From NCBI RefSeq assembly GCF_024713975.1, contig NC_091110.1, forward strand, positions 2,801,001-2,865,000: 64,000 nucleotides of DNA, in the 5' to 3' direction. Source of the DNA: Paralichthys olivaceus. Taxonomy: Eukaryota > Chordata > Actinopteri > Pleuronectiformes > Paralichthyidae. Shown here in pieces: positions 24,360 through 61,053 of this stretch (positions are counted from its first letter, which is position 1; each line of letters begins with the position of its first letter). The translations under genes were made by a program, and so were the position numbers. The notes below the pieces were generated by a model. The model had not been told where the DNA came from. It saw only the letters and a program-made list of their open reading frames with translations, and did no database searches.

Positions 24360-24447
<88 letters not shown>

Positions 24448-35572: not shown

Positions 35573-37937
35573 CTAATTTAATTCACCACAGTCGGCAATG
35601 ACAACCTTGGCATTAGTCGCACCGCTTTCTGAGCCATACTTCTCCATTGCCTCGATAACTTTTGTTCCCTCCACAGCTTTGCCAAACACCACATGCTTCC
35701 CGTCCAGCCTGAGGAGGAGAGGAGACGATGAATATATGAGACCAACAAATTGTTTGTTTTCATCTCAATGCAGGTGTGCACAAGTAACAGTGGAGCTCAC
35801 CATGAAGTTTTACCAGTGCAGAGGAAGAACTGGGACCCGTTGGTGTTGGGTCCAGCATTAGCCATCGACAGTGTTCCTGGGCCTGTATGTTTCAACTGAA
35901 AGTTCTCATCAGGAAACTTCTCTCCGTAGATGGATTTGCCTCCAGTTCCATTGTGGTTGGTAAAGTCTCCTCCCTGTAAAACAAAGTTGAATCAGCACAT
36001 GTGGTGTCTCTGGAATATTCAGTTTGACTGTCTTCCATTTGATCGAACTAAATGTTTTATTCACTGTTCATTTTATGCCTGTTTTTGAAACATTGTTTAT
36101 TGATGTGTTTGTATCTCTGCCTTGCAAGGTGACCTTGAGTGCTCTGAAAGGTACCTATAAATAAAATGTATTATTATTATTATTAATACATGTGGTAGCA
36201 GCCGTCATGATTAAGGTTCAACTTGAGCTTAAATCTAAACTGTACCTGGCACATGAATCCAGGGATGATACGGTGAAACGTGGAGCCCTTGTAGCCAAAA
36301 CCTTTCTCTCCAGTGCACAAAGCACGGAAATTTTCTGTAAGTAAAGATTCTGTCAATCCTCAAGAAAACTTATACCAACTAAAACAAGCACAAAATAAAA
36401 ACATTGTAACTGGAGATTTTTCCTATTTCCTTGTTCTCCTTGTAGGACATTTGGGAAAAACAGGAAGCAGACACATTTTGTTGTCAGATACATCACAGTA
36501 AATCTGAGTTTTGTTATATTTTTGCAGTGTTTAAGTGTCAATGTTAATGATCTTTAAATCCTAAAAAGGCTCTGGAGAGACATGGAGGCAGATCAAAAAG
36601 CTTTGCAGAAGACACAAACTACTAAATGTATGAAGTCATAATAACACCAGAAGGACTCAGTTGCATGTCTACTTGTGTCAATGTTTTACCCTCACATTTG
36701 ACTCTAGGACCGGATATTCAGGTTTTTTTAATCGATGCGTCAGCCAAACAAGTATTTGGGTGTGTACAACAAGCCTGAGCCTGATGCTGTGTGCAGTAAC
36801 TGAAAGTTTTTCTCTGTCTCACCCACCTGCCGTCTTTGGGACCACATCTGCCCGCAACTGCAAGACACAGGGATTTTTTACACGAGTGAACAGTTTGACA
36901 CATAATACACACAGTCAAGAGGAACAGTGAGATACTCTGTAAACTAAAGCTTTGTAAAGGACAGGCCCAGAATACCTGAAGCCTCAAATGTGACAAAGGC
37001 AACAACAACATGGGCAAAGAGGCTTTTTTATTCCAGTTGACCACACTAAGCCCAGCTTCATACATGAATAACAGCTGCCTGACCGATATCAGTATTACAG
37101 ATAAATGCTCATTATACTATGCACCATTTGTAAGTATTCTGTTGATGTACTTTACTTTTATATGTCATATACTTAGCTGACTTTCATTAGATGCTGTATG
37201 TTTATTGCTTATCTTATTGATGAAGAGCTGTAGTTTCTATTCATATATCGGTTTTTCATTGTGTGAAGTGAATGTGATCAACCTGCTAGGAAAGCGATGT
37301 TAAAGATTAACATCCGTCATTTAACGTAGCCACTAGGTGGTGCCGTGACTGAGACTGAATATTGTCATGTAGATGTCTTCTGAGACATGTGTAGTTTGGC
37401 ACAGACTTGACAAAGCACACGCTAGTTATAAGCTACTTCCTGTTTCATCAGTACTGAAATTCCATGCCACGGAACTGCATTGAAGAAAAACTGAAAAGTT
37501 GCTTTGCCTTTAAAATTATCAGAGTAATCAAACCATGATGCCACACCCATGCATGAGTCTTATTCAATCAGAGCATTTTCACAAGACACATTTTGTGACT
37601 TTTCAAGTATGTTCAGGACTGAAAATGAGAAGAAAGACATAAAGCATTAAGGGACCAACTAGGTCCTTATGGGTAATCATACCATTCTGTCCTCAGGCCC
37701 CAATAAAAAGGAAACATTTGCTGGTATCTGTGTATAAACCTGCTTTTAATGTTAAAGCTGCACCTGAGAACATGTCAGTCACACCTACAGCCTGTTTGTA
37801 TATAATCCAACTTTAAATTGTGCATAGTCAAAATTAAATATGAATAGTCAGTGATTGATTAATCTTACCTGCATTACAATCCTGCCAGCAGGAGCGCCAC
37901 CAATGGTGATGTCAAAGAAAACTCTGGGATTTGCCAT
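35573..37937 (-). CDS. ppia: ppia copy 1: cyclophilin A, peptidyl-prolyl cis-trans isomerase
   Basis: Cytosolic prolyl isomerase, the cyclosporin A target. Exons in coding order: 37869-37937, 36827-36857, 36246-36334, 35801-35973, 35573-35708 (498 nt, 165 aa, the same length as human PPIA, so numbering matches). Catalytic and ligand residues are present: Arg55, Phe60, Met61, Gln63 ([11 protein letters not shown]), Phe113, Trp121, Leu122 and His126. Copy-specific features: Leu114 instead of Ile ([12 protein letters not shown]) and a diverged last exon ([19 protein letters not shown]). Intron sizes 1011, 492, 272 and 92 bp; its second intron is the shortest of all copies. It is the downstream-most gene of the array and looks intact. 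Confidence 0.95.
36050..36190 (+). repeat. Interspersed-element tail in ppia intron 3 (all of copies 1-6)
   Basis: About 140 bp ending ggtacctataaataaaatgtattattattatta, which looks like the 3' tail of a LINE or SINE with a microsatellite end. Equivalent copies lie near 39430, 42740, 48076, 51535 and 54835, always in intron 3 (272 bp). Copy 7 has an 82-bp intron 3 without it. Its class was not determined. Confidence 0.7.
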
Positions 37938-38044
37938 TTTCACAAACCTGCCTCTGTGTTGCTTATAATGTAAAAGTTAAACTAGAAGTGAATCCTGTCA
38001 ACTTGTCAGACTCACTGGTTCTAAGCAGCTGACATAAGAGCTGA

Positions 38045-38170
38045 CAACAGCCAATCACAGCCCCCGTCCTCCTCAAAGGCTCAAAATTGGACCAATTGTA
38101 ATGAACATGTGAGTTGAGGTGTGGGTTGATTGGTCGAACCTGTTTCAGGACAGCTCGCAAGGGCGGAGCT
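38045..38170 (-). promoter_or_regulatory. ppia copy 1 promoter with four CCAAT boxes and a GC box
   Basis: Within about 230 bp of the start codon are CCAAT at 38051, a paired ATTGG/CCAAT at 38086-38096, ATTGG at 38129 and GGGCGG at 38161. No TATA box was seen. The same block precedes copies 2-6 (first CCAAT at 41447, 44821, 50156, 53552 and 56853; GGGCGG at 41557, 44931, 50266, 53662 and 56963). NF-Y and Sp1 use is inference from the motifs and would fit housekeeping expression. Confidence 0.7.
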
Positions 38171-38951
38171 GTGGCCAGAGAGAAAAGGCTGCAGTGGAAA
38201 AGCTGAAAAATACTCTTCTGTCCTCAACAATATTCCTTAACCTGGAAGCTCAGAGTTCATCTGCACTTATACAGCAGTTTTTTTTAAAACAAATTTAACC
38301 AGAGGTGGAAAAAGTACACATATGCTTTACTCAAATCATAATATCATAAGACAGTGAGAATAATTTGCTCTTGTTCATTATCAGTGATGTTGGATGATTC
38401 TTCTCTTTCCTCCATGTGCTTATTCCTCATCACAGACATATGAACATACACACTCACACACTTCTACCTATTAAGTTAATGCCTATACTCACCTCTAGTG
38501 TTTTACAACAATCAAAAAGTTACACCATGTTATTACAGCACTTGATAAATATTCTTAGGCTTTAATCCAATTCTCTTGTTGTGGCAAAAACGTCCCTTAC
38601 AGCTTAATACATACATTAAGAGAAAATACACAAATACACACAGCTGGAGTTTTCTAACAGATGTTTGAAACTGAATGAGAGGACACACAAAGTGAAATTA
38701 CTTTATTTATACAATCATCTTCACCATCATCCATTATCATCATCAATCTAAGTGAGAGCTTGTTAACAAATGTGGTCCTTAAGGACAGACTGGAATGTAC
38801 AACATATGAATATTGGACAAACATTTTTCGACTGTTTCTTCTTCTACTGATACTGTAGATATGCACCATCTCAAAGAGAAACTGGGATGTGGATGATAAG
38901 GATAAATCTGACAGGAGAGCAGACTGACATGAAGGAACTGAGTGAGTTGGA

Positions 38952-41333
38952 CTAATTTAATTCACCACAGTCCGCAATGACAACCTTGGCTTTAGTTGCA
39001 CCGCTTTCTGAGCCATGCTTCTCCATTGCCTTGACAACATCCATTCCCTCCACAGCTTTGCCAAACACCACATGCTTCCCGTCCAGCCTGAGGAGGAGAG
39101 GAGACGATGAATATTTGAGACCAACAAATTGTTTGTTTTCATCTCAATGCAGGTGTGCACAAGTCACAGTGGAGCTCACCATGAAGTTGAAGATGTGCAG
39201 ATGAAGAACTGGGACCCGTTGGTGTTGGGTCCAGCATTAGCCATCGACAGTGTTCCTGGGCTGATATGTTTCAACTGAAAGTTCTCATCAGGAAACTTCT
39301 CTCCATAGATGGATTTGCCTCCAGTTCCATTGTGGTTGGTAAAGTCTCCTCCCTGTAAAACCAAGTTGAGTCAGCACATGTGGTGTCGCTGGAATATTCA
39401 GTTTGACTGTCTTCCATTTGATCGATCTAAATGTTTTATTCACTGTTCATTTTATTCCTGTTTTTGAAACATTGTTTATTGATGTGTTTGTATCTCTGCC
39501 TTGCAAGGTGACCTTGAGTGCTCTGAAAGGCACCTATAAATAAAATGTATTATTATTATTATTAATACATGTGGTAGCAGCCGTCATGATTAAGGTTCAA
39601 CTTGAGCTTAAATCTAAACTGTACCTGGCACATGAATCCAGGGATGATACGGTGAAACGTGGAGCCCTTGTAGCCAAAACCTTTCTCGCCAGTGCACAAA
39701 GCACGGAAATTTTCTGTAAGTAAAGATTCTGTCAGTCCTCAAGAAAACTTATACCAACTAAAACAAGCACAAAATAAAAACATTGTAACTGGAGATTTTT
39801 CCTATTTCCTTGTTCTCCTTGTAGGACATTTGGGAAAAACAGGAAGCAGACACATTTTGTTGTCAGATACAACACAGTAAATCTGAGTTTGGTTGTTTTT
39901 TCAAAAGTGTTAGTGTCGATGTTAGTGATCTTTAAAACAAAACAAGGCTCTGGAAAGACATAGAAGCAGATCGAGAAGGTTTACAGTCTTTTCAACACTT
40001 GTGCAGCTCCTAAAAGCAGAAAACACAAACTACTATATGTATTAAGTCATAATTACATCAAAACCTGTAAAGTAAAACATTTTGTAAAGTAAAATCTGAA
40101 GGGAATGACTGACAACCTCATTTCCACAGAGGCAAATATTTGTTCTTTGCACCGACTGAGAATAAATGAGGCCATGTGACTAACATTGGTCTATGAACAG
40201 TATCACAAGGACTCAGTTAAGTATTGTGCAGGTTTTAACCACTTGCCAACAGCTTTCTCTTCCTTCTTGTTGTTATTATCACTCACAGCAGTGGTAGCAC
40301 TCACTTGCATGTCTCCTTGTGTCAATGTTTGACCCTCACATTTGACTATGGGACGGGATATTCAGGTTTTTTTAATCGATGCGACCGCCACAGTCTCAAC
40401 CCATACGAGGAATAAAACCAGCTGAATGGAGACGCACTGTTTCTTCACTCAAACACAAGTATTTGGGTGTGTACAACAAGCATGAGCCTGATGCTGTGTG
40501 CAGTAACTCTGAAGGTTTTTCTCTGTCTCACCCACCTGCCGTCTTTGGGACCACATCTGCCTGCAGCTGCAAGACACAGGGATTTCTTACACGAGTGAAC
40601 AGTTTGACACATAATACACACAGTCAAGAGGAAGAGTGAGATACTCTGCAAACTAAAGCTTTGAAGTGAATGTGATCAACCTGCTAGGAAAGCGATGTTA
40701 CAGTTTAACATCCGTCATTTAACGTAGCCACTAGGTGGTGCCGTGACTGAGACTGAATATTGTCATGTAGATGTCTTCTGAGACGTGTAGTTTGGCACAG
40801 ACTTGACAAAGCACACGCTAGTTATAAGCTACTTCCTGTTTCATCAGTACTGAAATTCCATGCCACGGAACTGCATTGAAGAAAAACTGAAAAGTTGCTT
40901 TGTCTTTAAAATTATCAGAGTAATCAAACCATGACGCCACACCCATGCATGAGACTTATTCAATCAGAGCATTTTCACAAGACACATTTTGTGACTTTTC
41001 AAGTATGTTCAGGACTGAAAATGAGAAGAAAGACAAAAAGCATTAAGGGACCAACTAGGTCCTTATGGGTAATCATACCATTCTGTCCTCAGGCCCCAAT
41101 AAAAAGGAAACATTTGCTGGTATCTGTGTATAAACCTGCTTTTAATGTTAAAGCTGCACCTGAGAACATGTCAGTCACACCTACAGCCTGTTTGTATATA
41201 ATCCAACTTTAAATTGTGCATAGTCAAAATTAAATATGAATAGTCAGTGATTGATTTATCTTACCTGCATTACAATCCTGCCAGCAGGAGCGCCACCAAT
41301 GGTGATGTCAAAGAAAACTCTGGGATTTGCCAT
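38952..41333 (-). CDS. ppia: ppia copy 2: cyclophilin A
   Basis: Exons in coding order: 41265-41333, 40536-40566, 39625-39713, 39180-39352, 38952-39087; 165 aa, complete. Begins [14 protein letters not shown]. Copy-specific residues: Gln25 in exon 2 ([10 protein letters not shown], shared only with copy 5), and HISPG plus [10 protein letters not shown] in exon 4 (shared with copy 6). Last exon reads [20 protein letters not shown]. All active-site residues are kept. Introns of 698, 822, 272 and 92 bp place it in the same indel class as copies 5 and 6. The exon 2 acceptor has a second AG a few bases inside the exon (GCAGCTGCAG), which might allow a minor shifted splice. Confidence 0.95.
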
Positions 41334-42266
41334 TTTCACAAACCTGCCTCTGTGTTGCTTATAATGTAAAAGTTAAACTAGAAGTGAATCCTGTCAACTT
41401 GTCAGACTCACTGGCTCTAAGCAGCTGACATAAGAGCTGACAACAGCCAATCGCAGCCTCCGTCCTCCTCAAAGGCTCAAAATTGGACCAATTGTAATGA
41501 ACATGTGAGTTGAGGTGTGGGTTGATTGGTCGAACCTGTTTCAGGACAGCTCGTAAGGGCGGAGCTGTGGCCAGAGAGAAAAGGCTGCAGTGGAAAAGCT
41601 GAAAAATAATCTTCTGTCCTCAACACTATTCCTTAACCTGGAAGGAAAGGTCATGAGGTCAAAGAGGATGAAGCCCAAAGGAGATCAGGGTCTGGAGCAC
41701 ATGAACATATGAACATTTGAGCATATGAACATATGAAGATATGAACATATGAAGATATGAACATACACTCACACACTTCTACCTATTAAGATAATGCCTA
41801 TACTCACCTCTAGTGTTTTACAACAATCAAAAAGTTACACCATGTTATTACAGCACTTGATAAATATTCTTAGGTTTTAATCCAATTCTCTTGTTGTGGC
41901 AAAAACTTCCCTTACAGCTTAATACATACATAAAGAGAAAATACACAAATACACACAGCTGGAGTTTTCTAACAAATGTTTGAAACTGAATGAGAGGACA
42001 CACAAAGTGAAATTACTTTATTTATACAATCATCTTCACCATCATCCATTATCATCATCAATCTAAGTGAGATCTTGTTAACAAATGTGGTCCTTAAGGA
42101 CAGACTGGAATGTACAACATATGAATATTGGACAAACATTTTTAGACTGTTTCTTCTTCTACTGATACTGTAGATATGCACCATCTCAAAGATTAACTGG
42201 GATGTGGATGATAAGGAGAAATCTGACAGGAGAGCAGACTGACATGAAGGAACTGAGTGAGTTGGA

Positions 42267-44707
42267 CTAATTTAATTCACCACAGTCGACAATGACAATC
42301 TTGGCTTTAGTTGCACCGCTTTCTGAGCCATGCTTCTCCATTGCCCTGACAACATCCATTCCCTCCACAATGTTGACAAACACCACATGCTTCCCGTCCA
42401 GCCTGAGGAGGAGACGATGAATATTTGAGACCAACAAATTGTTTGTCTTCATCTCAATGCAGGTGTGCACAAGTCACAGTGAAGCTCACCATGAAGTTTT
42501 ACTAGTGCAGATGAAGAACTGGGACCCGTTGGTGTTGGGTCCAGCATTAGCCATGGACAGTGTTCCTGGGCCTGTATGTTTCAACTGAAAGTTCTCATCA
42601 GGAAACTTCTCTCCATAGATGGATTTGCCTCCAGTTCCATTGTGGTTGGTAAAGTCTCCTCCCTGGAAAACCAAGTTGAATCAGCACATGTGGTGTCTCT
42701 GGAATATTCAGTTTGACTGTCTTCCATTTGATCGAACTAAATGTTTTATTCACTGTTCATTTTATTCCTGTTTTTGAAACATTGTTTATTGATGTGTTTG
42801 TATCTCTGCCTTGCAAGGTGACCTTGAGTGCTCTGAAAGGCACCTATAAATAAAATGTATTATTATTATTATTAATACATGTGGTAGCAGCCGTCATGAT
42901 TAAGGTTCAACTTGAGCTTAAATCTTAACTGTACCTGGCACATGAATCTAGGGATGATACGGTGAAATGTGGAGCCCTTGTAGCCAAAACCTTTCTCTCC
43001 AGTGCACAAAGCACGGAAATTTTCTGTAAGTAAAGATTCTGTCAATCCTCAAGAAAACTTATACCAACTAAAACAAGCACAAAATAAAAACATTGTAACT
43101 GGAGATTTTTCCTATTTCCTTGTTCTCCTTGTAGGACATTTGGGAAAAACAGGAAGCAGACACATTTTGTTGTCAGATACAACACAGTAAATCTGAGTTT
43201 GGTTGTTTTTGCAAAAGTGTTAGTGTCAATGTTAGTGATCTTTAAAACAAAACAAGGCTCTGGAAAGACATGGAGGCAGATCGAGAAGGTTTACAGTCAG
43301 GTTTTAACCACTTGCCAACAGCTTTCTCTTCCTTCTTGTTGTTATTATCACTCACAGCAGTGGTAGCACTCACTTGCATGTCTCCTTGTGTCAATGTTTG
43401 ACCCTCACATTTGACTATGGGACGGGATATTCCGGTTTTTTTAATCGATGCGACAGCCACAGTCTCAACCCATACGAGGAATAAAACCAGCTGAATGGAG
43501 ACGCACTGTTTCTTCACTCAAACACAAGTATTTGGGTGTGTACAACAAGCATGAGCCTGATGCTGTGTGCAGTAACTCTGAAGGTTTTTCTCTATCTCAC
43601 CCACCTGCCGTCTTTGGGACCTCATCTGCCCGCAACTGCAAGACACAGGGATTTTTTACACGAGTGAACAGTTTGACACGTAATACACACAGTCAAGAGG
43701 AACAGTGAGATACTCTGCAAACTAAAGCTTTGTAAAGGACAGGCCCAGAATACCTGAAGCCTCAAATGTGACAAAGGCAACAACAACATGGGCAAAGAGG
43801 CTTTTTTATTCCAGTTGACCACACTAAGCCCAGCTTCATACATGAATAACAGCTGCCTGACCGATATCAGTATTACAGATAAATGCTCATTATACTATGC
43901 ACCATTTGTAAGTATTCTGTTGATGTACTTTACTTTTATATGTCATATACTTAGCTGACTTTCATTAGATGCTGTATGTTTATTGCTTATCTTGTTAATG
44001 AAGAGCTGTAGTTTCTATTCATATATCGATTTTCATTGTGTGAAGTGAATGTGATCGACCTGCTAGGAAAGCGATGTTAAAGATTAACATCCGTCATTTA
44101 ACGTAGCCACTAGGTGGTGCCGTGACTGAGACTGTATATTGTCATGTAGATGTCTTCTGAGACATGTGTAGTTTGGCACAGACTTGACAAAGCACACGCT
44201 AGTTATAAGCTACTTCCTGTTTCATCAGTACTGAAATTCCATGCCACGGAACTGCATTGAAGAAAAACTGAAAAGTTGCTTTGTCTTTAAAATTATCAGA
44301 GTAATCAAACCATGACGCCACACCCATGCATGAGACTTATTCGTTCAGAGAATTTTTACAAGACACTATTTGTGACTTTTCAAGTATGTTCAGGACTGAA
44401 AATGAGAAGAAAGACAAAAAGGGACCAACTAGGTCCTTATGGGTAATCATACCATTCTGTCCTCAGGCCCCAATAAAAAGGAAACATTTGCTGGTATCTG
44501 TGTATAAACCTGCTTTTAATGTTAAAGCTGCACCTGAGAACATGTCAGTCACACCTACAGCCTGTTTGTATATAAACCAACTTTAAATTGTGCATAGTCA
44601 AAATTAAATATGAATAGTCAGTGATTGATTAATCTTACCTGCATTACAATCCTGCCAGCAGGAGCGCCATCAATGGTGATGTCAAAGAAAACTCTGGGAT
44701 CTCCCAT
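42267..44707 (-). CDS. ppia: ppia copy 3: cyclophilin A with several unusual residues
   Basis: Exons in coding order: 44639-44707, 43605-43635, 42935-43023, 42490-42662, 42267-42402; 165 aa, open throughout. Starts [14 protein letters not shown]. Differences from the consensus of the array: Glu28 ([10 protein letters not shown]) and Arg59 (IIPRFMCQ), both shared with copy 4; Val130 for the Gly of HVVFG ([10 protein letters not shown]), seen only here, next to the active-site His126; Arg140 (VVRAMEKH). Exon 4 ends [10 protein letters not shown]. Introns 1003, 581, 272 and 87 bp, matching copy 4. Functional by frame, but the Gly130 change in a normally conserved turn makes activity less certain. 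Confidence 0.92.
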
Positions 44708-45790
44708 TTTTACAAACCTGCCTCTGTGTTGCTTATAATGTAAAAGTTAAACTAGAAGTGAATCCTGTCAACTTGTCAGACTCACTGGCTCTAAGCAGCT
44801 GACATAAGAGCTGACAACAGCCAATCGCAGCCCCCGTCCTCCTCAAAGGCTCAAAATTGGACCAATTGTAATGAACATGTGAGTTGAGGTGTGGGTTGAT
44901 TGGTCGAACCTGTTTCAGGACAGCTCGCAAGGGCGGAGCTGTGGCCAGAGAGAAAAGGCTGCAGTGGAAAAGCTGAAAAATAATCTTCTGTCCTCAACAC
45001 TATTCCTTAACCTGGAAGCTCAGAGTTCATCTGCACTTATACAGCAGGTTTTTTTAAAACGACTTTAACCAGAGGTGGAAAAAGTACACATATGCTTTAC
45101 TCAAATAGAAGTACAGATACTTGTGTGAAAGGTAACTTTCGGAAAAGTTTAAGTACTCATTCAACCTCTCAAGTAAAAGTATAACAATAACAGGCTGTGA
45201 GAAATGCTCAAAGTATAAAAGTAAGAGTATCATAAGACAGTGAGAATAATTTGCTCTTGTTCATTATCAGTGATGTTGGATGATTCTTCTCTTTCCTCCA
45301 TGTGCTTATTCCTCATCACAGACATATGAACATACACACTCACACACTTCTACCTATTAAGTTAATGCCTATACTCACCTCTAGTGTTTTACAACAATCA
45401 AAAAGTTACACCATGTTATTACAGCACTTGATAAATATTCTTAGGCTTTAATCCAATTCTCTTGTTGTGGCAAAAACGTCCCTTACAGCTTAATACATAC
45501 ATAAAGAGAAAATACACAGATACACACAGCTGGAGTTTTCTAACAGATGTTTGAAACTGAATGAGAGGACACACAAAGTGAAATTACTTTATTTATACCA
45601 TCATCTTCATCATCATCCATTATCATCATCAATCTAAGTGAGATCTTGTTAACAAATGTGGTCCTTAAGGACAGACTGGAATGTACAACATATGAATATT
45701 GGACAAACATTTTTAGACTGTTTCTTCTTCTACTGATACTGTAGATATGCACCATCTCAAAGAGTAACTGGGATGTGGATGATAAGGATA

Positions 45791-47550
45791 CACAGCTATT
45801 ACAAGGATAAGGATACACAGCTATTACACCTCTTCACCCCAGCCTGGACGAAGACTCAACCCCCCTCCCCCCCATCACACCTCTCTCTATTCAGGAGAGA
45901 GATGTAAACAAGCTTCTGAAGAAGTTGAACCCCCGCAAGGCACCTGGACCCGACGCTGTCTCCCCCTCCACACTGAGGCACTGTGCAGACCAGCTTTCGC
46001 CAGTGTTCACGGACATCTTTAACACCTCACTGGCTGAATGTGCTGTACCCGCCTGTCTCAAAACATCCACCATCATCCCCGTTCCAAAGAAGCAGAGGAT
46101 CACAGGCCTTAATGACTACAGACCTGTCGCCCTGACCTCTGTAGTAATGAAGACCTTTGAGCGCCTCGTGCTGACCCACCTCAAGACAATAACCAACCAC
46201 CTCCTCGACCCACTGCAGTTTGCCTACAGAGCCAACAGGTCCGTAGACGACGCAGTCAACATGGGACTCCACTTCATCCTCCAGCACCTCGACTCCCCCA
46301 GCACCTACGCCAGGATCCTGTTTGTGGACTTCAGCTCCGCATTCAACACCATCGCCCCAGCTCTTCTCCGTGACAAGCTGACACAGCTGAGCGTGCCTGA
46401 GCCCACCTGTAGGTGGATCTCTAACTTCCTGACTGACAGGAAGCAGCGCGTGAGGCTGGGCAAGCTTGTCTCTGAGTCACGGACCATCAGCACTGGAGCC
46501 CCACAAGGTTGTGTGCTCTCCCCTCTACTGTTCTCCCTCTACACCAACAACTGCACCTCCAGCCATCCCTCTGTCAAACTCCTGAAGTTTGCAGACGACA
46601 CGACCCTCATCGGATTAATCACCAATGGGGACGAAGCCGCCTACAGAGAGGAAGTTAACAGCCTGGCTTCCTGGTGCAGCCAGAACCACCTGGAGCTGAA
46701 CGCTCTAAAAACTGTAGAGATGGTGGCAGACTTCAGGAGGAGCCCAGCCCAAACTGCCCCCCTCAGCCTGTGCAACTCCCCAGTTAAAACAGTGGAGTCC
46801 TTCAGATTCCTGGGGACCATCATTGCACAGGACTTGAGGTGGGCGGAGAACATCACCTCCATCACCAAGAAGGCCCAGCAGAGGATGTTCTTCCTGCGGC
46901 AACTGAGGAAATTCAACATGCCGCAGAAAGTGATGGTTGAATTCTACACAGCCATCATTGAGTCCATCCTCACCTCATCAATCACCGTCTGGTTCGCTGC
47001 CTCCACTGCCAAGGACAAGGGCAGACTGCAGCGGATCATAAGGTCAGCTGAGAAGGTCATCGGCTGTGACCTGCCGGCCCTCCTAGACCTGTTCCACTCC
47101 AGGACCAGTAGGAGAGCAGGCAAGATCATTGCTGATCCCTCACATCCCGGTCACCACCTGTTCCAGAGACTTCCCTCCGGAAAAAGGTTTCGGGCCATCA
47201 GGACTAAAACCTCTCGCCATCTGAACAGTTTTTTCCCCGTGGCAGTGGGGCTCACAAACAAGCCCCCTGCATCACACTGACTCTGCACCGCACTGACTCT
47301 ACCCCACCACACCCCACCACCTGCACATAATTTATAATTTATTACTACTCTGTTACTGCATATATGTATATACTTTACTTTATTTTATTTTATTTTATTC
47401 TATTTTATTTTATACCATTTCTTATATATTGTTGTTTTTCTACATTGTTGTTTTATGTACATAAGTAGTGCACCAATTACACCAAGGCAATTTCCTGTAT
47501 GTGCAAACATACCTGGCAAATAAAAGAATTCTGATTCTGATTCTGATTCT
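45791..47550 (+). mobile_element. 5'-truncated non-LTR retrotransposon (LINE, CR1/L2/Rex1 group)
   Basis: About 1.76 kb holding the 3' part of a LINE. One frame (about 45880-47280) encodes the reverse transcriptase: [37 protein letters not shown], the catalytic FADDT near 46584, then the C-terminal [20 protein letters not shown] ending at 47278-47280. The frame is open upstream without a good ATG, and no endonuclease domain is present, as expected of 5' truncation. The 3' end has AATAAA at 47519 and a (GATTCT)n tail, typical of CR1/L2-type elements. The other units show the unbroken target gataaggataaatctgacag, so the insertion lies between GATA and AATCTG. It is antisense to ppia copy 4, about 50 bp beyond its stop, in the 3' UTR. 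Confidence 0.93.
47377..47412 (-). promoter_or_regulatory. Cluster of antisense AATAAA motifs inside the LINE
   Basis: The plus strand reads (TTTAT)n here, so the ppia-sense strand carries several overlapping AATAAA hexamers about 190-225 bp after the copy 4 stop. They could end the copy 4 transcript early, in place of the normal 3' UTR signal that now lies about 2 kb away near 45590. This role is inference. Confidence 0.4.
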
Positions 47551-47601
47551 GATAAATCTGACAGGAGAGCAGACTGACATGAAGGAACTGAGTGAGTTGG
47601 A

Positions 47602-50042: not shown

Positions 50043-51056
50043 TTTCACAAACCTGCCTCTGTGTTGGTTATAATGTAAAAGTTAAACTAGAAGTGAATCC
50101 TGTCAACTTGTCAGACTCACTGGTTCTAAGCAGCTGACATAAGAGCTGACAACAGCCAATCGCAGCCCCGGTCCTCCTCAAAGGCTCAAAATTGGACCAA
50201 TTGTAATGAACATGTGAGTTGAGGTGTGGGTTGATTGGTCGAACCTGTTTCAGGACAGCTCGTAAGGGCGGAGCTGTGGCCAGAGAGAAAAGGCTGCAGT
50301 GGAAAAGCTGAAAAATAATCTTCTGTCCTCAACACTATTCCTTAACCTGGAAGCTCAGAGTTCATCTGCACTTATACAGCAGGTTTTTTTAAAACAACTT
50401 TAACCAGAGGTGGAAAAAGTACACATATGCTTTACTCAAATCATAATATCATAAGACAGTGAGAATAATTTGCTCTTGTTCATTATCAGTGATGTTGGAT
50501 GATTCTTCTCTTTCCTCCATGTGCTTATTCCTCATCACAGACATATGAACATACACACTCACACACTTCTACCTATTAAGTTAATGCCTATACTCACCTC
50601 TAGTGTTTTACAACAATCAAAAAGTTACACCATGTTATTACAGCACTTGATAAATATTCTTAGGCTTTAATCCAATTCTCTTGTTGTGGCAAAAACGTCC
50701 CTTACAGCTTAATACATACATAAAGAGAAAATACACAAATACACACAGCTGGAGTTTTCTAACAGATGTTTGAAACTGAATGAGAGGACACACAAAGTGA
50801 AATTACTTTATTTATACCATCATCTTCATCATCATCCATTATCATCATCAATCTAAGTGAGATCTTGTTAACAAATGTGGTCCTTAAGGACAGACTGGAA
50901 TGTACAACATATGAATATTGGACAAACATTTTTAGACTGTTTCTTCTTCTACTGATACTGTAGATATGCACCATCTCAAAGAGAAACTGGGATGTGGATG
51001 ATAAGGAGAAATCTGACAGGAGAGCAGACTGACATGAAGGAACTGAGTGAGTTGGA

Positions 51057-53438
51057 CTAATTTAATTCACCACAGTCGACAATGACAATCTTGGCTTTAG
51101 TCGCACCGCTTTCTGAGCCATGCTTCTCCATTGCCCAGACAACATCCAGTCCCTCCACAGCTTTGCCAAACACCACATGCTTCCCGTCCAGCCTGAGGAG
51201 GAGAGGAGACGATGAATATTTGAGACTAACAAATTGTTTGTTTTCATCTCAATGCAGGTGTACACAAGTAACAGTGGAGCTCACCATGAAGTTTTACTAG
51301 TGCAGATGAAGAACTGGGACCCGTTGGTGTTGGGTCCAGCATTAGCCATCGACAGTGTTCCTGAGCTGATGTGTTTCAACTGAAAGTTCTCATCAGGAAA
51401 CTTCTCTCCATAGATGGATTTGCCTCCAGTTCCATTGTGGTGGGTAAAGTCTCCTCCCTGTAAAACAAAGTTGAATCAGCACATGTGGTGTCTCTGGAAT
51501 ATTCAGTTTGATTGTCTTCCATTTGATCGAACTAAATGTTTTATTCAATGTTCATTTTATTCCTGTTTTTGAAACATTGTTTATTAATGTGTTTGTATCT
51601 CTGCCTTGCAAGGTGACCTTGAGTGCTCTGAAAGGCACCTATAAATAAAATGTATTATTATTATTATTAATACATGTGGTAGCAGCCGTCATGATTAAGG
51701 TTCAACTTGAGCTTAAATCTAAACTGTACCTGGCACATGAATCCAGGGATGATACGGTGAAACGTGGAGCCCTTGTAGCCAAAACCTTTCTCTCCAGTGC
51801 ACAAAGCACGGAAACTTTCTGTAAGTAAAGATTCTGTCAATCCTCAAGAAAACTTATACCAACTAAAACAAGCACAAAATAAAAACATTGTAACTGGAGA
51901 TTTTTCCTATTTCCTTGTTCTCCTTGTAGGACATTTGGGAAAAACAGGAAGCAGACACATTTTGTTGTCAGATACAACACAGTAAATCTGAGTTTGGTTG
52001 TTTTTTCAAAAGTGTTAGTGTCAATGTTAATGATCTTTAAAACAAAACAAGGCTCTGGAAAGACATAGAAGCAGATCGAGAAGGTTTACAGTCTTTTCAA
52101 CACTTGTGCAGCTCCTAAAAGCAGAAAACACAAACTACTATATGTATTAAGTCATAATTACATCAAAACCTGTAAAGTAAAACATTTTGTAAAGTAAAAT
52201 CTGAAGGGAATGACTGACAACCTCATTTCCACAGAGGCAAATATTTGTTCTTTGCACCGACTGAGAATAAATGAGGCCATGTGACTAACATTGGTCTATG
52301 AACAGTATCACAAGGACTCAGTTAAGTATTGTGCAGGTTTTAACCACTTGCCAACAGCTTTCTCTTCCTTCTTGTTGTTATTATCACTCACAGCAGTGGT
52401 AGCACTCACTTGCATGTCTCCTTGTGTCAATGTTTGACCCTCACATTTGACTATGGGACGGGATATTCAGGTTTTTTTAATCGATGCGACCGCCACAGTC
52501 TCAACCCATACGAGGAATAAAACCAGCTGAATGGAGACACACTGTTTCTTCACTCAAACACAAGTATTTGGGTGTGTACAACAAGCATGAGCCTGATGCT
52601 GTGTGCAGTAACTCTGAAGGTTTTTCTCTGTCTCACCCACCTGCCGTCTTTGGGACCACATCTGCCTGCAGCTGCAAGACACAGGGATTTCTTACACGAG
52701 TGAACAGTTTGACACATAATACACACAGTCAAGAGGAACAGTGAGATACTCTGCAAACTAAAGTTTTGAAGTGAACGTGATCGACCTGCTAGGAAAGCGA
52801 TGTTAAAGTTTAACATCCGTCATTTAACGTAGCCACTAGGTGGTGCCGTGACTGAGACTGAATATTGTCATGTAGATGTCTTCTGAGACGTGTAGTTTGG
52901 CACAGACTTGACAAAGCACACGCTAGTTATAAGCTACTTCCTGTTTCATCAGTACTGAAATTCCATGCCACGGAACTGCATTGAAGAAAAACTGAAAAGT
53001 TGCTTTGTCTTTAAAATGATCAGAGTATTCAAACCATGACGCCACACCCATGCATGAGACTTATTCAATCAGAGCATTTTTACAAGACACATTTTGTGAC
53101 TTTTCAAGTATGTTCAGGACTGAAAATGAGAAGAAAGACAAAAAGCATTAAGGGACCAACTAGGTCCTTATGGGTAATCATACCATTCTGTCCTCAGGCC
53201 CCAATAAAAAGGAAACATTTGCTGGTATCTGTGTATGAACCTGCTTTTAATGTTAAAGCTGCACCTGAGAACATGTCAGTCACACCTACAGCCTGTTTGT
53301 ATATAAACCAACTTTAAATTGTGCATAGTCAAAATTAAATATGAATAGTCAGTGATTGATTTATCTTACCTGCATTACAATCCTGCCAGCAGGAGCGCCA
53401 TCAATGGTGATGTCAAAGAAAACTCTGGGATTTGCCAT
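51057..53438 (-). CDS. ppia: ppia copy 5: cyclophilin A
   Basis: Exons in coding order: 53370-53438, 52641-52671, 51730-51818, 51285-51457, 51057-51192; 165 aa, complete. Starts [14 protein letters not shown]. Copy-specific residues: Gln25 (with copy 2), Ser35 for Asn (ESFRALCTG, with copy 6), His at the FTHHNGTGG site, and Trp140 for Lys in the last exon ([11 protein letters not shown]), found in no other copy. Ile156 and Val159 ([12 protein letters not shown]) are shared with copy 3. Introns 698, 822, 272 and 92 bp. Catalytic residues Arg55, Phe60, Phe113, Trp121 and His126 are kept. Confidence 0.94.
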
Positions 53439-54355
53439 TTTCACAAACCTGCCTCTGTGTTGCTTATAATGTAAAAGTTAAACTAGAAGTGAATCCTGTC
53501 AACTTGTCAGACTCACTGGTTCTAAGCAGCTGACATAAGAGCTGACAACAGCCAATCACAGCCCCCGTCCTCCTCAAAGGCTCAAAATTGGACCAATTGT
53601 AATGTACATGTGAGTTGAGGTGTGGGTTGATTGGTCGAACCTGTTTCAGGACAGCTCGCAAGGGCGGAGCTGTGGCCAGAGAGAAAATGCTGCAGTGGAA
53701 AAGCTGAAAAATAATCTTCTGTCCTCAACACTATTCCTTAACCTGGAAGGAAAGGTCATGAGGTCAAAGAGGATGAAGCCCAAAGGAGATCAGGGTCTGG
53801 AGCACATGAACATATGAACATATGAAGATATGAACATATGAAGATATGAACATACACTCACACACTTCTACCTATTAAGATAATGCCTATACTCACCTCT
53901 AGTGTTTTACAACAATCAAAAAGTTACACCATGTTATTACAGCACTTGATAAATATTCTTAGGCTTTAATCCAATTCTCTTGTTGTGGCAAAAACGTCCC
54001 TTACAGCTTAATACATACATTAAGAGAAAATACACAAATACACATAGCTGGAGTTTTCTAACAGATGTTTGAAACTGAATGAGAGGACACACAAAGTGAA
54101 ATTACTTTATTTATACCATCATCTTTATCATCATCCATTATCATCATCAATCTAAGTGAGAGCTTGTTAACAAATGTGGTCCTTAAGGACAGACTGGAAT
54201 GTACAACATATGAATATTGGACAAACATTTTTAGACTGTTTCTTCTTCTACTGATACTGTAGATATGCACCATCTCAAAGATTACCTGGGATGTGGATGA
54301 TAAGGATAAATCTGACAGGAGAGCAGACTGACATGAAGGAACTGAGTGAGTTGGA

Positions 54356-56739
54356 CTAATTTAATTCACCACAGTCGGCAATGACAACCTTGGCTTTAGT
54401 TGCACCGCTTTCTGAGCCATGCTTCTCCATTGCCTTGACAACATCCATTCCCTCCACAACGTTGCCAAACACCACATGCTTCCCGTCCAGCCTGAGGACG
54501 AGAGGAGACGATGAATATTTGAGACCAACAAATTGTTTGTTTTCATCTCAATGCAGGTGTGCACAAGTCACAGTGGAGCTCACCATGAAGTTGAAGATGT
54601 GCAGATGAAGAACTGGGACCCGTTGGTGTTGGGTCCAGCATTAGCCATCGACAGTGTTCCTGGGCTGATATGTTTCAACTGAAAGTTCTCATCAGGAAAC
54701 TTCTCTCCATAGATGGATTTGCCTCCAGTTCCATTGTGGTTGGTAAAGTCTCCTCCCTGTAAAACCAAGTTGAGTCAGCACATGTGGTGTCTCTGGAATA
54801 TTCAGTTTGACTGTCTTCCATTTGATCGATCTAAATGTTTTATTCACTGTTCATTTTATTCCTGTTTTTGAAACATTGTTTATTGATGTGTTGGTATCTC
54901 TGCCTTGCAAGGTGACCTTGAGTGCTCTGAAAGGTACCTATAAATAAAATGTATTATTATTATTGTTAATACATGTGGTAGCAGCCATCATGATTAAGGT
55001 TCAACTTGAGCTTAAATCTAAACTGTACCTGGCACATGAATCCAGGGATGATACGGTGAAACGTGGAGCCCTTGTAGCCAAAACCTTTCTCTCCAGTGCA
55101 CAAAGCACGGAAACTTTCTGTAAGTAAAGATTCTGTCAATCCTCAAGAAAACTTATACCAACTAAAACAAGCACAAAATAAAAACATTGTAACTGGAGAT
55201 TTTTCCTATTTCCTTGTTCTCCTTGTAGGACATTTGGGAAAAACAGGAAGCAGACACATTTTGTTGTCAGATACAACACAGTAAATCTGAGTTTGGTTGA
55301 CTTTTCAAAAGTGTTAGTGTCAATGTTAGTGATCTTTAAAACAAAACAAGGCTCTGGAAAGACATGGAGGCAGATCGAGAAGGTTTACAGTCTTTTCAAC
55401 ACTTGTGCAGCTCCTAAAAGCAGAAAACACAAACTACTATATGTATTAAGTCATAATTACATCAAAACCTGTAAAGTAAAACATTTTGTAAAGTAAAATC
55501 TGAAGGGAATGACTGACAACCTCATTTCCACAGAGGCAAATATTTGTTATTTGCACCCACTGAGAATAAATGAGGCCATGTGACTAACATTGGTCTATGA
55601 ACAGTATCACAAGGACTCAGTTAAGTATTGTGCAGGTTTTAACCACTTGCCAGCAGCTTTCTCTTCCTTCTTGTTGTTATTATCACTCACAGCAGTGGTA
55701 GCACTCACTTGCATGTCTCCTTGTGTCAATGTTTGACCCTCACAATTGACTCTGGGACGGGATATTCAGGTTTTTTTAATCGATGCGACCGCCACAGTCT
55801 CAACCCATACGAGGAATAAAACCAGCTGAATGGAGACGCACTGTTTCTTCACTCAAACACAAGTATTTGGGTGTGTACAACAAGCATGAGCCTGATGCTG
55901 TGTGCAGTAACTCTGAAGGTTTTTCTCTGTCTCACCCACCTGCCGTCTTTGGGACCACATCTGCCCGCAACTGCAAGACACAGGGATTTCTTACACGAGT
56001 GAACAGTTTGACACATAATACACACAGTCAAGAGGAAGAGTGAGATACTCTGCAAACTAAAGCTTTGAAGTGAATGTGATCAACCTGCTAGGAAAGTGAT
56101 GTTAAAGTTTAACATCCGTCATTTAACGTAGCCACTAGGTGGTGCCGTGACTGAGACTGAATATTGTCATGTAGATGTCTTCTGAGACATGTGTAGTTTG
56201 GCACAGACTTGACAAAGCACACGCTAGTTATAAGCTACTTCCTGTTTCATCAGTACTGAAATTCCATGCCACGGAACTGCATTGAAGAAAAACTGAAAAG
56301 TTGCTTTGTCTTTAAAATTATCAGAGTAATCAAACCATGACACCACACCCATGCATGAGACTTATTCAATCAGAGCATTTTTACAAGACACTTTTTGTGA
56401 CTTTTCAAGTATGTTCAGGACTGAAAATGAGAAGAAAGACAAAAAGCATTAAGGGACCAACTAGGTCCTTATGGGTAATCATACCATTCTGTCCTCAGGC
56501 CCCAATAAAAAGGAAACATTTGCTGGTATCTGTGTATAAACCTGCTTTTAATGTTAAAGCTGCACCTGAGAACATGTCAGTCACACCTACAGCCTGTTTG
56601 TATATAATCCAACTTTAAATTGTGCATAGTCAAAATTAAATATGAATAGTCAGTGATTGATTAATCTTACCTGCATTACAATCCTGCCAGCAGGAGCGCC
56701 ACCAATGGTGATGTCAAAGAAAACTCTGGGATCTCCCAT
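54356..56739 (-). CDS. ppia: ppia copy 6: cyclophilin A
   Basis: Exons in coding order: 56671-56739, 55940-55970, 55029-55117, 54584-54756, 54356-54491; 165 aa, complete. Starts [14 protein letters not shown]. Exon 2 [10 protein letters not shown] (as copies 1 and 7), exon 3 with Ser35 (as copy 5), exon 4 with HISPG and SSTSW (as copy 2), last exon [21 protein letters not shown] (close to copy 4). It is thus the clearest patchwork in the array. Introns 700, 822, 272 and 92 bp. No lost catalytic residue. Confidence 0.95.
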
Positions 56740-57500
56740 TTTCACAAACCTGCCTCTGTGTTGGTTATAATGTAAAAGTTAAACTAGAAGTGAATCCTGT
56801 CAACTTGTCAGACTCACTGGCTCTAAGCAGCTGACATAAGAGCTGACAACAGCCAATCACAGCCCCCGTCCTCCTCAAAGGCTCAAAATTGGACCAATTG
56901 TAATGAACATGTGAGTTGAGGTGTGGGTTGATTGGTCGAACCTGTTTTAGGACAGCTCGCAAGGGCGGAGCTGTGGCCAGAGAGAAAAGGCTGCAGTGGA
57001 AAAGCTGAAAAATAATCTTCTGTCCTCAACTCTATTCCTTAACCTGGAAGGAAAGGTCATGAGGTCAAAGAGGATGAAGCCCAAAGGAGATCAGGGTCTG
57101 GAGCACATGAACATATGAACATTTGAGCATATGAACATATGAAGATATGAACATATGAAGATATGAACATACACTCACACACTTCTACCTATTAAGTTAA
57201 TGCCTATACTCACCTCTAGTGTTTTACAACAATCAAAAAGTTACACCATGTTATTACAGCACTTGATAAATATTCTTAGGCTTTAATCCAATTCTCTTGT
57301 TGTGGCAAAAACGTCCCTTACAGCTTAATACATACATTAAGAGAAAGTACACAAATACACACAGCTGGAGTTTTCTAACAGATGTTTGAAACTGAATGAG
57401 AGGACACACAAAGTGAAATTACTTTATTTATACCATCATCTTCATCATCATCCATTATCATCGTCAATCTAAGTGAGCTCTTGTTAACAAATGTGGTCCT

Positions 57501-57876
57501 TTAAGGTTCAGTGTGTAGAATTTTGTGATATCTAGTGTTGAAGCTTGCATATTGCAGCTGAACACCCCTCACCTCACCCTCTCCTTCCAAACATGAAAAA
57601 GAAACTGTGGTAGCCTTTAATTGTCATAAAAACTGAAAAGGTGTTTAGTTTGTCCAGTCTGGACTAATGTAAAAAAACATGGCGTCCTCCATAGAGAGGA
57701 CCCCCTCGATGTAAATATAAAGTATTTAAATATAAAGGGCCTTTTCTGGTGTAAAGAAAACTACAATTCATACAATTTAGATGAAATGAACTAGTGAAAA
57801 CATCATGAGAATCGTTCTACATTAAATTACTGCCAATAGTTCCCTTTAACCTTAATCTTACACACTGGAGCTTTAA
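57501..57876 (+). mobile_element. TTAA-flanked MITE, copy B, in the 3' UTR region of ppia copy 7
   Basis: Inserted at a TTAA that is still empty in units 1-6 (gtccTTAAggacagactgg). Here the left side reads TTTAAGGTTCAGTGTG and the right side cacactggagctTTAAGGAC. About 376 bp, no coding frame. Same family as the copies at 17598 and 61709. Confidence 0.85.
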
Positions 57877-58045
57877 GGACAGACTGAAATGTACAAAATA
57901 TGAATATTGGACAAACATTTTTCGACTGTTTCTTCTTCTACTGATATTATAGATATGCACCATCTCAAAGAGTAACTGGGATGTGGATGATAAGGAGAAA
58001 TCTGACAGGAGAGCAGACTGACATGAAGGAACTGAGTGAGTTGGA

Positions 58046-61000
58046 CTAATTTAATTCACCACAGTCGGCAATGACAACCTTGGCTTTCGGAGTACCGCTC
58101 TTTGTGCCATGCTTCTCCATTGCCTTGACAACATCCATTCCCTCCACAACGTTGCCAAACACCACATGCTTCCCGTTCAGCCTGAGGACGAGAGGAGACG
58201 ATTAGTATGCAAAACCAGCCAAACTTCTTGTTTTCATCTCAATGCAGGTGTGCACGTGTCACAGTGGAGCTCACCAGTCAGTTGAAGCTGTGCAGATAAA
58301 GAACTGGGACCCATTGGTGTTGGGTCCAGCATTAGCCATGGACAGTGTCCCTATGCCTGCGTGTTTCAACTGAAAGTTCTCATCAGCAAACTTCTCTCCA
58401 TAGATGGATTTGCCTCCAGTTCCATTGTGGTTGGTGAAGTCTCCTCCCTGTAAGACAAAGTTGACAGCAGCGGTCATAAATGTGTGATTTGTGAAAAATG
58501 AAAAAACAGCATTGATCCCTTAACTGTACCTGGCACATGAATTTAGGGATGACACGGTGAAACGTGGAGCCCTTGTAGCCAAAACCTTTCTCTCCAGTGC
58601 ACAAAGCACGGAAATTCTCTGGAAGAAAAGATTCTGTCAATTCTTGGGTAAACTTATATCTACACAAAATGAATGCATAACAGCATTATACAGAGCTTCA
58701 GAGCAAACTCAAACCACCCAGGGTAGTTCTCTTGAATTATTTATTTTCTCTTGAATAAACTTCACATATTTCCGAAGGTGAACAGCTGATCTTTCTCATT
58801 GTATTTTGCCTGCTCAGCAGAGTGCTGCTACTGGTGTTGTCTCCTATTTCCTTTTCTCCTTGCAGCTGAGACAGGAAGCAGAAACATTTCATTGCAGTTA
58901 ATCAGAGTTTGGATTTTGTAAGTCAAAAGTGTTACTATTAACAAATTAATGATCTTTCGAACTAAAATAAATTGTGGGAAAAACAGAAAATGATCACAGG
59001 GAGTTGGAAATTGTATTAAAAATGAGACCATAAAATCAAATATTCAAGATTGAATGAGTAATGATTAATGTTGAAATTCTTAAAAAAAAATGCTTGAGTG
59101 TTATTGTATGTGATAGCAATAACAAACAGCACACAAATAAGTGTGAGAAAAGCACAGGCAAAAAGACAAAATACACAAATGTGAAAGAACCAAAACTGTT
59201 TTAAAAGCTGTGTTAATGAGCTTAATGAGAATGTTCACAAGACTTCACACTTGCACAGCTCTACAAGCTACTGTGTGCATACAGTTACATCAAAACCGGA
59301 AAACGCTCCACACAAAGGTCAAGTTAAAATCACTCATTAAAAAAACTGTTAAGAGTAAATTACAGAAATCTCAGATAAACTAAATAAAGAATCAAAACCC
59401 TAACCTCATTTCCATGGAGGCAATCTTCTTCTTTAGCAACCACTGAGAATAAATGAGGCCATCTGACTAACATTAGCCTATGTGGGGCAGAATCACAGGG
59501 ACTCAATAAAGCATTGTGCAGGTTTTCTTGCAGTTTAACCACTTGCAGACATCTTTTTCTTCCTTCTTAATGTTATTATCACTCACAGCAGTGGTACCAC
59601 TCAGTTGCATGTCTGCTTGTGTCAATGTTTTACCCTCACATTTGACTATATTCAGATTCTTTCTATCACTGCGTCAGCCATCGTTTGCCTTAAACTCCAA
59701 ATGAAGAATAAATGCTCAGCTAAACTGGGAGGCATTGTTTTTTCAGCCAAATGCAAATGTGTGTTGTCGAGAAGACGTCTGAGCCTGATGCTGTGTGCAG
59801 TAACTCGGATTTTCTCTGTCTCACCCACCTGCCGTCTTTGGGACCACATCAGCCCGGAGCTGCAAGACACAGGGATTTTTTACATGAGTGCTTGACACAT
59901 AGTACACACAGACAAGAGGAACAGTGAGATACTCTGAAAATTTTTGCAAAGGATGAAGAAGACAATAAGCCTCAAATGTGACAGCAGCAACAACAACATG
60001 CGCCAAGAGGCATTTTTATCACAGCTGACAACAGTAAGCCCAGCGTCATACGTGAGGCACACAAATCAGCTGCCTTAACTACATTACATTTCTATTACAT
60101 GCAAATGCTTCAGTATTTTATACACCAATCTGTAAGTATTCTGTTACAGCATATTACATTAATATGTAATATATATATCCAGCTTTTCTTCAACTATAGA
60201 TGATGTTTGTTTATTGCTTATAGTGTAAGTGCTCTAGCATAGTTTCTATTTTTATTTCTATTCTTATTTAAATTTGATAGACTTCATAATTAGTTAAATT
60301 CCCCCTCTGGGAATCAGTACACATATATTGATTAATGAATATATGTGTGTTTTTGGTGTATGTATATATATATATATACATATTCTGCCATATGAGCACA
60401 GTTAGATATTAAATAATTATATATATATATATATATATATGCAGCAGGATATCATCACATTTTAAATAGCTGATAACAGATCATTTGGCATTTTTATTTA
60501 AAATATGTATTTAAAATGATCATAATAGTGGCAGATTGAGTTTCTATCCATTGATTCATTGATGAAACTACTAATTATTTCATATCTAACTGTGCTCATA
60601 TAGAAGACAGGCTGCATCGCTTGAGTCCTAGTCTGACCTAAACAAATGTCATGATGATGACGATGATGATGATGGTGGTGATGATGATGGTGGTGAGGAT
60701 GATGATGGTGGTGGTGAAGAAGATGATGATGGGCGTTCCCGTTGGAGCAGGACTGTTTTGTTGGCTATGTGCCTGATTCACTTGATCTTGTCTGTGTTTC
60801 TGCAGACTGACATAACCTGAGAACAAAAGATTGAGGCCTGTTAAAATACATGAACCCATCTGCCCATAAGAGAACATCTGTCTCTGCTTCGGTCCAAATC
60901 GAGCAGACGCTCAAGCCGAATTTAAACCCTGAATTGCGCACAGCCGAGACTGACTGTGAAGAGTTAATGAGGGATTTCTCTCACCTCCATTGTGATCCTG

Positions 61001-61053
61001 CCGATGTTAGAGCCATCCACGGCGATGTCAAAGAAAACTCTGGGGTTTCCCAT
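58046..61053 (-). CDS. ppia: ppia copy 7: cyclophilin A, the divergent founder-like copy
   Basis: Exons in coding order: 60985-61053, 59829-59859, 58530-58618, 58275-58447, 58046-58181; 165 aa, complete. The N-terminus [20 protein letters not shown] is nearer to human PPIA (FFDIAVDG) than the TIGGAPAG form of the other copies. Other marks: [42 protein letters not shown] and [10 protein letters not shown]. All catalytic residues are present. Introns are 1125, 1210, 82 and 93 bp. The third lacks the repeat found in every other copy, and introns 1 and 2 are only patchily alignable to theirs. It therefore branched off before copies 1-6 multiplied. Confidence 0.95.
60360..60440. repeat. TA microsatellites in ppia copy 7 intron 1
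   Basis: Two (TA)n tracts at about 60363-60378 and 60419-60440, separated by about 40 bp. Confidence 0.9.
60651..60732. repeat. ATG/GTG trinucleotide repeat in ppia copy 7 intron 1
   Basis: Imperfect (GAT/GGT)n tract of about 80 bp, close to exon 1. Open frames across it are low-complexity artefacts. Confidence 0.9.

Follow-up and report, generated by a model that had tools for sequence, protein, structure and literature searches.

Seven tandem cyclophilin A genes in a fish genome: sequence comparison suggests reshaping of six recent copies around a fixed active site

Cyclophilin A is strongly conserved, is usually encoded by a single housekeeping gene and is a common reference gene in qPCR. 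In human there is a single intron-bearing PPIA, with five coding exons, in addition to retrocopies, and housekeeping genes usually carry a CpG-rich promoter. The locus described herein, on the minus strand of contig C18, shares with vertebrate PPIA a product of 165 amino acids, one cyclophilin domain, the same active site and a ZMIZ2-like neighbour. It differs in having seven tandem copies, six of them at a mutual dN/dS near 1. Judged by titles and the start of abstracts, no paper describing tandemly arrayed cyclophilin A genes in a fish was found within the terms searched.

The window, i.e., the whole 64-kb stretch that was analysed (C18:2801001-2865000), belongs to a 588-Mb genome in 25 contigs and contains zero N bases; Rfam and tRNA scans found nothing in these 64 kb. 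Scripted gene models place seven head-to-tail cyclophilin A genes at 35573-61053, all on the minus strand: c1 at 35573-37937 (exons 37869-37937, 36827-36857, 36246-36334, 35801-35973 and 35573-35708), c2 at 38952-41333 (41265-41333, 40536-40566, 39625-39713, 39180-39352 and 38952-39087), c3 at 42267-44707 (44639-44707, 43605-43635, 42935-43023, 42490-42662 and 42267-42402), c4 at 47602-50042 (49974-50042, 48940-48970, 48270-48358, 47825-47997 and 47602-47737), c5 at 51057-53438 (53370-53438, 52641-52671, 51730-51818, 51285-51457 and 51057-51192), c6 at 54356-56739 (56671-56739, 55940-55970, 55029-55117, 54584-54756 and 54356-54491) and c7, the diverged copy closest to the ZMIZ2-like gene, at 58046-61053 (60985-61053, 59829-59859, 58530-58618, 58275-58447 and 58046-58181). 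Each spacer holds the promoter of the lower-numbered gene that it borders. The c1/c2 spacer (37938-38951) is, by sequence comparison, 98.6% identical over its full length to the c4/c5 spacer (50043-51056); the others lie at 41334-42266 (c2/c3), 44708-47601 (c3/c4), 53439-54355 (c5/c6) and 56740-58045 (c6/c7). The c3/c4 spacer also contains a LINE-like insert with a 489-codon open frame on the plus strand (45811-47277), whose likeness to a LINE reverse transcriptase was judged by eye.

The preliminary description of seven five-exon genes with uniform exon lengths, open frames and canonical splicing agrees with all seven models: each has five coding exons of 69, 31, 89, 173 and 136 nt and a stop-terminated 165-residue frame, and GT-AG borders occur at 28/28 introns of c1-c7. 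Polyadenylation motifs, splice sites and frames look intact in every gene, and the proposed DNA-level tandem expansion with no visible pseudogene is borne out by 7/7 models. The missing pseudogene is nevertheless weaker evidence than it appears, because a set of about 48 random changes in coding sequence would be free of stop codons with a probability of 0.23.

The array, next to a ZMIZ2-like gene, is apparently the ancestral PPIA locus. ZMIZ2-like frames are found right of c7, in L015 and L020; they were named ZMIZ2-like by eye. PPIA and ZMIZ2 are neighbours in human as well. A second PPIA, on contig C4, is single-copy, lacks intron 2 and adjoins another ZMIZ2-like gene. The fish PPIF, on C21, has a leader and an extra intron and adjoins a ZMIZ1-like gene. 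A PPIF identity for the array was entertained, since PPIF entries take all ten top places among the PDB matches of c7. The proteins of c1-c7 are 75-77% identical to human PPIA (162 sites) and 74-76% to human PPIF, and an unrooted protein tree joins human PPIA with fish PPIF (support 84), then human PPIF (78), then the C4 paralog (98), with c1-c7 apart. The PPIF identity is rejected on the neighbours, the missing leader (in the contiguous frame, no in-frame Met precedes the start before a stop in any of the seven genes, although a separately spliced exon could encode one) and the absence of an intron within exon 4. That intron position also occurs in C14 and C12 cyclophilins and is therefore not unique to PPIF. 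One scan of viral contigs found no relatives of c2.

Pfam PF00160 is matched by all eight proteins (c1-c7 and the C4 paralog) over positions 1-158 or 2-158 of the 159-position profile, with E-values of 1.9e-47 to 3.1e-51 for c1-c7. The full active-site set claimed earlier is confirmed, in that 13 PPIase/CsA-site residues, as listed in PMC5037701, are unchanged in 7/7 proteins; together with seven equally invariant gatekeepers, from PMC2911226, they make up 18 distinct positions. Catalysis is predicted from these residues. Amino acids vary at 27 positions among c1-c6. Residue 69 is Asn, Lys or His across the array (Lys69 in c4, His69 in c5); experiments have implicated this residue in the chemotactic activity of fish CypA and in the specificity of TRIMCyp. 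A single-sequence AlphaFold model of c1 was uninformative (mean pLDDT 33).

Divergence sets a recent block, c1-c6, apart from c7, which represents an older lineage of its own. Within the block, exons diverge pairwise by 1.8-5.2%; c7 differs from it by a pS of 0.16-0.18 and a pN of 0.08-0.11. The dN/dS of the array genes is 0.08-0.13 against C4, 0.43-0.62 against c7 and 1.26-1.47 within c1-c6. Informative sites are incompatible in 156/276 pairs in exons and 184/325 in introns of c1-c6. The promoters also differ: CpG observed/expected is 1.22 in the C4 paralog, which has the CpG-rich promoter of housekeeping type, 0.76 in c7 and 0.17-0.28 in c1-c6, which do not have one. CCAAT boxes are retained in c1-c6. 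Of the seven array genes, only c6 and c7 have putative ISRE-like motifs upstream.

The exons of c1-c6 have changed faster than the adjoining non-coding DNA while the active site stayed fixed, which suggests, at the level of sequence, a reshaping for new roles. Mean pairwise divergence is 0.042 in exons versus 0.025 in introns, and segregating sites are enriched in exons both among c2-c6 (37/498 versus 63/1631, p=0.0016) and among c1-c6 (46/498 versus 98/1509, p=0.045), in Fisher tests that, here as below, take sites as independent and leave p values uncorrected across comparisons. At the 61 codons that differ among five reference cyclophilins (family-variable codons), replacements reach 25/142 against 99/1509 in introns (p=3e-5), or against 51/1050 when intron 2 is excluded (p=4e-7); against exon synonymous sites the same comparison gives p=0.11. 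Model M2a surpasses M1a on three trees (2dlnL 39.2, 32.4 and 50.1), and 0/80 simulations under a recombining null (star-tree analysis) reached 32, with a maximum of 23.7. We lean towards the explanation that one of two PPIA loci, freed from housekeeping, diversifies its surface around a fixed pocket.

The main rival, which we hold to be rather unlikely, is relaxed drift: the C4 gene would perform the housekeeping, and c1-c6, recent and dispensable, would be gaining neutral replacements without having been broken so far. In c1-c6, replacement and synonymous sites have changed to the same extent (37/385 versus 11/110, p=0.86). The rate of change at family-conserved codons (11/236) is close to that of introns, a signal of relaxed constraint. 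Within c1-c6 the M0 omega is compatible with 1, being not significantly higher (p=0.21, 0.44 and 0.24), and a test of MK type that used c7 for comparison did not reach significance (p=0.15). The CpG-poor promoters and the unremarkable absence of stops also suit this explanation. Neutrality alone, however, does not give replacements at family-variable codons in excess of intron changes, nor an M2a fit beyond its recombining null. Neither the CCAAT boxes still present in c1-c6 nor the distribution of replacements, 0/43 sites at the 18 pocket and gatekeeper codons versus 37/342 elsewhere (p=0.023), favours drift. Indels within c1-c6 occupy 11 intervals in introns and none in exons (probability of none 0.027); for c2-c6 their absence from exons is unremarkable (0.22).

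It is improbable that the divergence arose without selection, by gene conversion limited to exons, with c7, C4 and PPIF, which align with the copies mainly there, as donors of variants. Synonymous change in exons is indeed raised over intron change (p=0.17 in c1-c6 and 0.04 in c2-c6), and the exons may therefore have an older history. The c7 base is present among those of c1-c6 at 43/45 polymorphic sites, as shared ancestry would also predict, and the rarer base matches c7 at 14/45, C4 at 9 and C21 at 13. Yet many rare variants, e.g., at codons 114, 136-140 and 69, match none of the three, and donated tracts should carry more synonymous change than was observed. Of the two outcomes of selection put forward in the preliminary description, specialised copies fit better, with relaxed drift as the possible alternative. 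Dosage, by which copies are retained for more of one protein, is very improbable: the intact look of all seven genes suits it, but it fits poorly because the proteins vary at so many positions, exons outdiverge introns and c1-c6 have no CpG-rich promoter, and their dN/dS near 1 speaks against it too. Although near-identical repeats are hard to assemble, an assembly artefact or uncollapsed haplotypes can hardly be credited, given a window free of N, differences of 9-26 coding bases in every c1-c6 pair, a clearly distinct c7 and the fact that errors would not prefer exons over introns.

Diversification around a fixed pocket could have proceeded as follows. The loci on C18 and C4 would be remnants of the teleost genome duplication, the single-copy C4 partner with its CpG-rich promoter probably keeping the housekeeping role. 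The C18 gene would have given rise to c7 and the ancestor of c1-c6, and the latter to six copies by tandem duplication, visible in the repeat structure and presumably driven by unequal crossing-over. Variants have been reshuffled between copies, as the incompatible site pairs indicate, probably by gene conversion. Outside the proline pocket, amino-acid change appears to be tolerated and is probably favoured, with the 18 checked residues invariant. The products would likely be active isomerases or proline binders that differ in their partner surface, and an immune role, in extracellular chemotaxis or the binding of pathogen proteins, would suit residue 69. Going further, it is possible, if only tentatively proposed, that the six genes form a shuffled germline repertoire with a fixed pocket and a diversified surface including residue 69, specific for partners or pathogens, while the duplication partner keeps the housekeeping function.

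If true, this would show how a strongly conserved protein escapes constraint after duplication, with dN/dS near 1 and the pocket intact; it would offer natural residue-69 variants and caution against the assumption that ppia can serve this fish as a single-copy reference gene. Venom phospholipases likewise form tandem families in which exons diverge more than introns and the catalytic core is conserved; the array protein, in contrast, descends from a cytosolic isomerase with a housekeeping role. Primate TRIMCyp resembles the array in its cyclophilin A copies altered at residue 69, where, according to PMC2924388, R69H broadened antiviral specificity; TRIMCyp proteins, however, are cDNA-derived TRIM5 fusions, whereas the array genes are unfused and intron-bearing. 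In the zebrafish fintrim ftr52, as described in PMC3137616, an immune-type protein similarly took up a cyclophilin A domain, but there a RanBP2-like cyclophilin domain is fused to a TRIM protein, whereas the array consists of tandem PPIA genes.

The preliminary description had claimed seven intact cyclophilin A genes, and this is borne out. Seven PPIA-type genes occupy 35573–61053 on the minus strand, from c1 (35573–37937, minus strand) to c7 (58046–61053, minus strand), and in every copy the coding exons measure 69, 31, 89, 173 and 136 nt, the introns are GT-AG and the frame encodes 165 aa. Distances between start codons along the array are 3.3–3.4 kb, except for c6–c7 (4.3 kb) and c3–c4 (5.3 kb), the latter interval containing a LINE-like insert. 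There, upstream of c3 and on the downstream side of c4, an open frame of 489 codons resembling a LINE reverse transcriptase lies at 45811–47277, and the 3′ flank of c4 differs from those of the other copies. Self-comparison of the window revealed a second-order repeat (36748–43298 versus 48859–55392, 97.7%), and the c1/c2 and c4/c5 spacers are 98.6% identical over the full 1014 bases. Values of pS are 0.018–0.068 among c1–c6 and 0.16–0.18 between these and c7, which, judged by sequence, is the older lineage in the array. The 173 bases directly downstream of c7 (57873–58045) are 95.4–96.5% identical to four other spacers while c7 itself is diverged, which suggests a recent exchange at this place. 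Matching tandem repeats with the 8-base unit ATGAACAT are present in two spacers (41701–41765 and 57107–57171).

Within the 588 Mb genome (25 contigs), the window corresponds to C18:2801001–2865000. To the right of c7 lies what we take to be a ZMIZ2-like gene, and to the left of the array presumed AEBP1-, DDX56- and DUSP26-like genes, all named provisionally from a reading of their translated frames; in human 7p13, AEBP1, DDX56 and ZMIZ2 are near PPIA. A 315-base CA repeat with strong GC skew is located at 24130–24444, within the DDX56-like region. Another contig, C4, carries one PPIA gene (L014, C4:473000–478000; 164 aa) which lacks intron 2, has Asn at gatekeeper 81, unlike all seven array genes, and adjoins a second presumed ZMIZ2-like gene, named in the same way. 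The C4 and C18 loci most plausibly represent the pair of PPIA genes derived from the teleost duplication. Contig C21 holds a PPIF gene with a leader, flanked by genes we take, again from their translated frames, to be ZCCHC24- and ZMIZ1-like. A whole-genome query with c7 gave at least 59 matches and, among the matches listed outside the array, identity did not exceed 81%. More multi-exon cyclophilins with the PPIF-type intron position in exon 4 occur at C14:14838000–14844000 and C12:19043500–19050000, and that on C14 may be a second PPIF.

No exon indels were found in c1–c6, against 11 intron indel intervals (P of none 0.027); for c2–c6 there are only 5 such intervals (P of no exon indel 0.22), and the probability of no stop among 48 changes is 0.23. 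Thus, intact frames alone are modest evidence of function. From −500 to +200, CpG observed/expected is 1.22 in C4, 0.76 in c7 and 0.17–0.28 in c1–c6. Four proximal CCAAT boxes hold the same positions across c1–c6, three of them with counterparts at c7, and every array gene has A at −3, G at +4 and a polyadenylation motif in the 800 bases that follow it. These features suggest promoters that have been kept but would no longer be of the housekeeping type.

All 18 pocket and gatekeeper positions, as listed in PMC5037701 and PMC2911226, are invariant in the seven array genes. In c1–c6, replacements fall on 0/43 pocket/gatekeeper sites versus 37/342 elsewhere (p=0.023). The 27 variable positions (2, 3, 13, 25, 28, 35, 59, 69, 93–95, 114, 117, 118, 120, 130–132, 136, 137, 139, 140, 145, 146, 153, 156 and 159) are all outside the listed pocket; given the general cyclophilin fold, they would form a surface.

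Among c1–c6, exons differ pairwise by 0.042 on average and introns by 0.025. Intron 2 of c1 (36335–36826) differs from its counterparts by about 9%, the remaining c1 introns by 1–5%, and c2–c6 therefore form the cleaner comparison set. Segregating sites are denser in exons than in introns, both in c2–c6 (37/498 versus 63/1631, p=0.0016) and in c1–c6 (46/498 versus 98/1509, p=0.045). Replacement changes exceed intron changes (c1–c6, 37/385 versus 99/1509, p=0.046; c2–c6, 29/386 versus 64/1631, p=0.004). Synonymous changes, however, also exceed those of introns in c2–c6 (9/109 versus 64/1631, p=0.04), and per site they equal replacements in c1–c6 (11/110 versus 37/385, p=0.86). Codons were also divided by agreement among human PPIA, human PPIF, C21, C4 and c7, independently of the c1–c6 data. 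At the 61 family-variable codons, replacements surpass introns (c1–c6, 25/142, 0.176, versus 0.066, p=3e-5; c2–c6, 20/142 versus 64/1631, p=4e-6), while the 101 conserved codons are at about the intron rate (11/236). This pattern points to relaxed constraint, with change at permissive sites above the local noncoding yardstick. Against exon synonymous sites in c1–c6, the excess at family-variable codons is not significant (25/142 versus 11/108, p=0.11).

For c1–c6, M0 omega was 1.47, 1.26 and 1.40 on three trees, on none of them significantly above 1 (p=0.21, 0.44 and 0.24). M2a outperformed M1a on all three (2ΔlnL 39.2, 32.4 and 50.1), placing 19–21% of codons at omega 7.0–8.4. Because recombination can inflate this test, 80 null M1a data sets were simulated in seven blocks, each given its own newly drawn random tree; analyzed on the star tree only (the other two trees being resolved), they reached at most 23.7 (0/80 at 32). 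Variable codons were more numerous in the simulated sets, with a mean of 55 versus 34 in the data. The dN/dS is 0.43–0.62 for c1–c6 versus c7 and 0.08–0.13 for all seven versus C4, where pS (0.60–0.68) is near saturation. A McDonald–Kreitman-like comparison of changes within the array (37 replacement, 11 synonymous) with fixed c7 differences (21 and 14) was not significant (p=0.15).

A good case for positive selection in c1–c6 can be made with introns as the yardstick and from site models, but it is weak against exon synonymous sites; for the latter reason, relaxed drift of these copies stays a serious rival. Exon-limited conversion from c7, C4 or PPIF is a possibility, the rarer base matching c7 at 14/45, C4 at 9/45 and C21 at 13/45 polymorphic sites. 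Informative-site pairs incompatible with one tree exceed half in exons (156/276) and introns (184/325), probably because the copies have exchanged sequence, with repeated mutation a lesser possibility.

The preliminary description had suggested selection for dosage or for specialized copies; the finding holds and is of greater interest than a dosage effect would be, and diversification is favored over relaxed drift. In the most likely account, PPIA was duplicated, the partner gene would have freed the array copies from constraint, and these would then have diversified outside the fixed pocket. At residue 69, c4 carries Lys and c5 His, and the other array genes (c1, c2, c3, c6 and c7) share Asn with C4. 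According to PMC5037701, Asn69 is conserved in teleost CypA and a mutant of yellow catfish CypA at this residue had negligible chemotactic activity; PMC2924388 describes R69H as altering TRIMCyp specificity.
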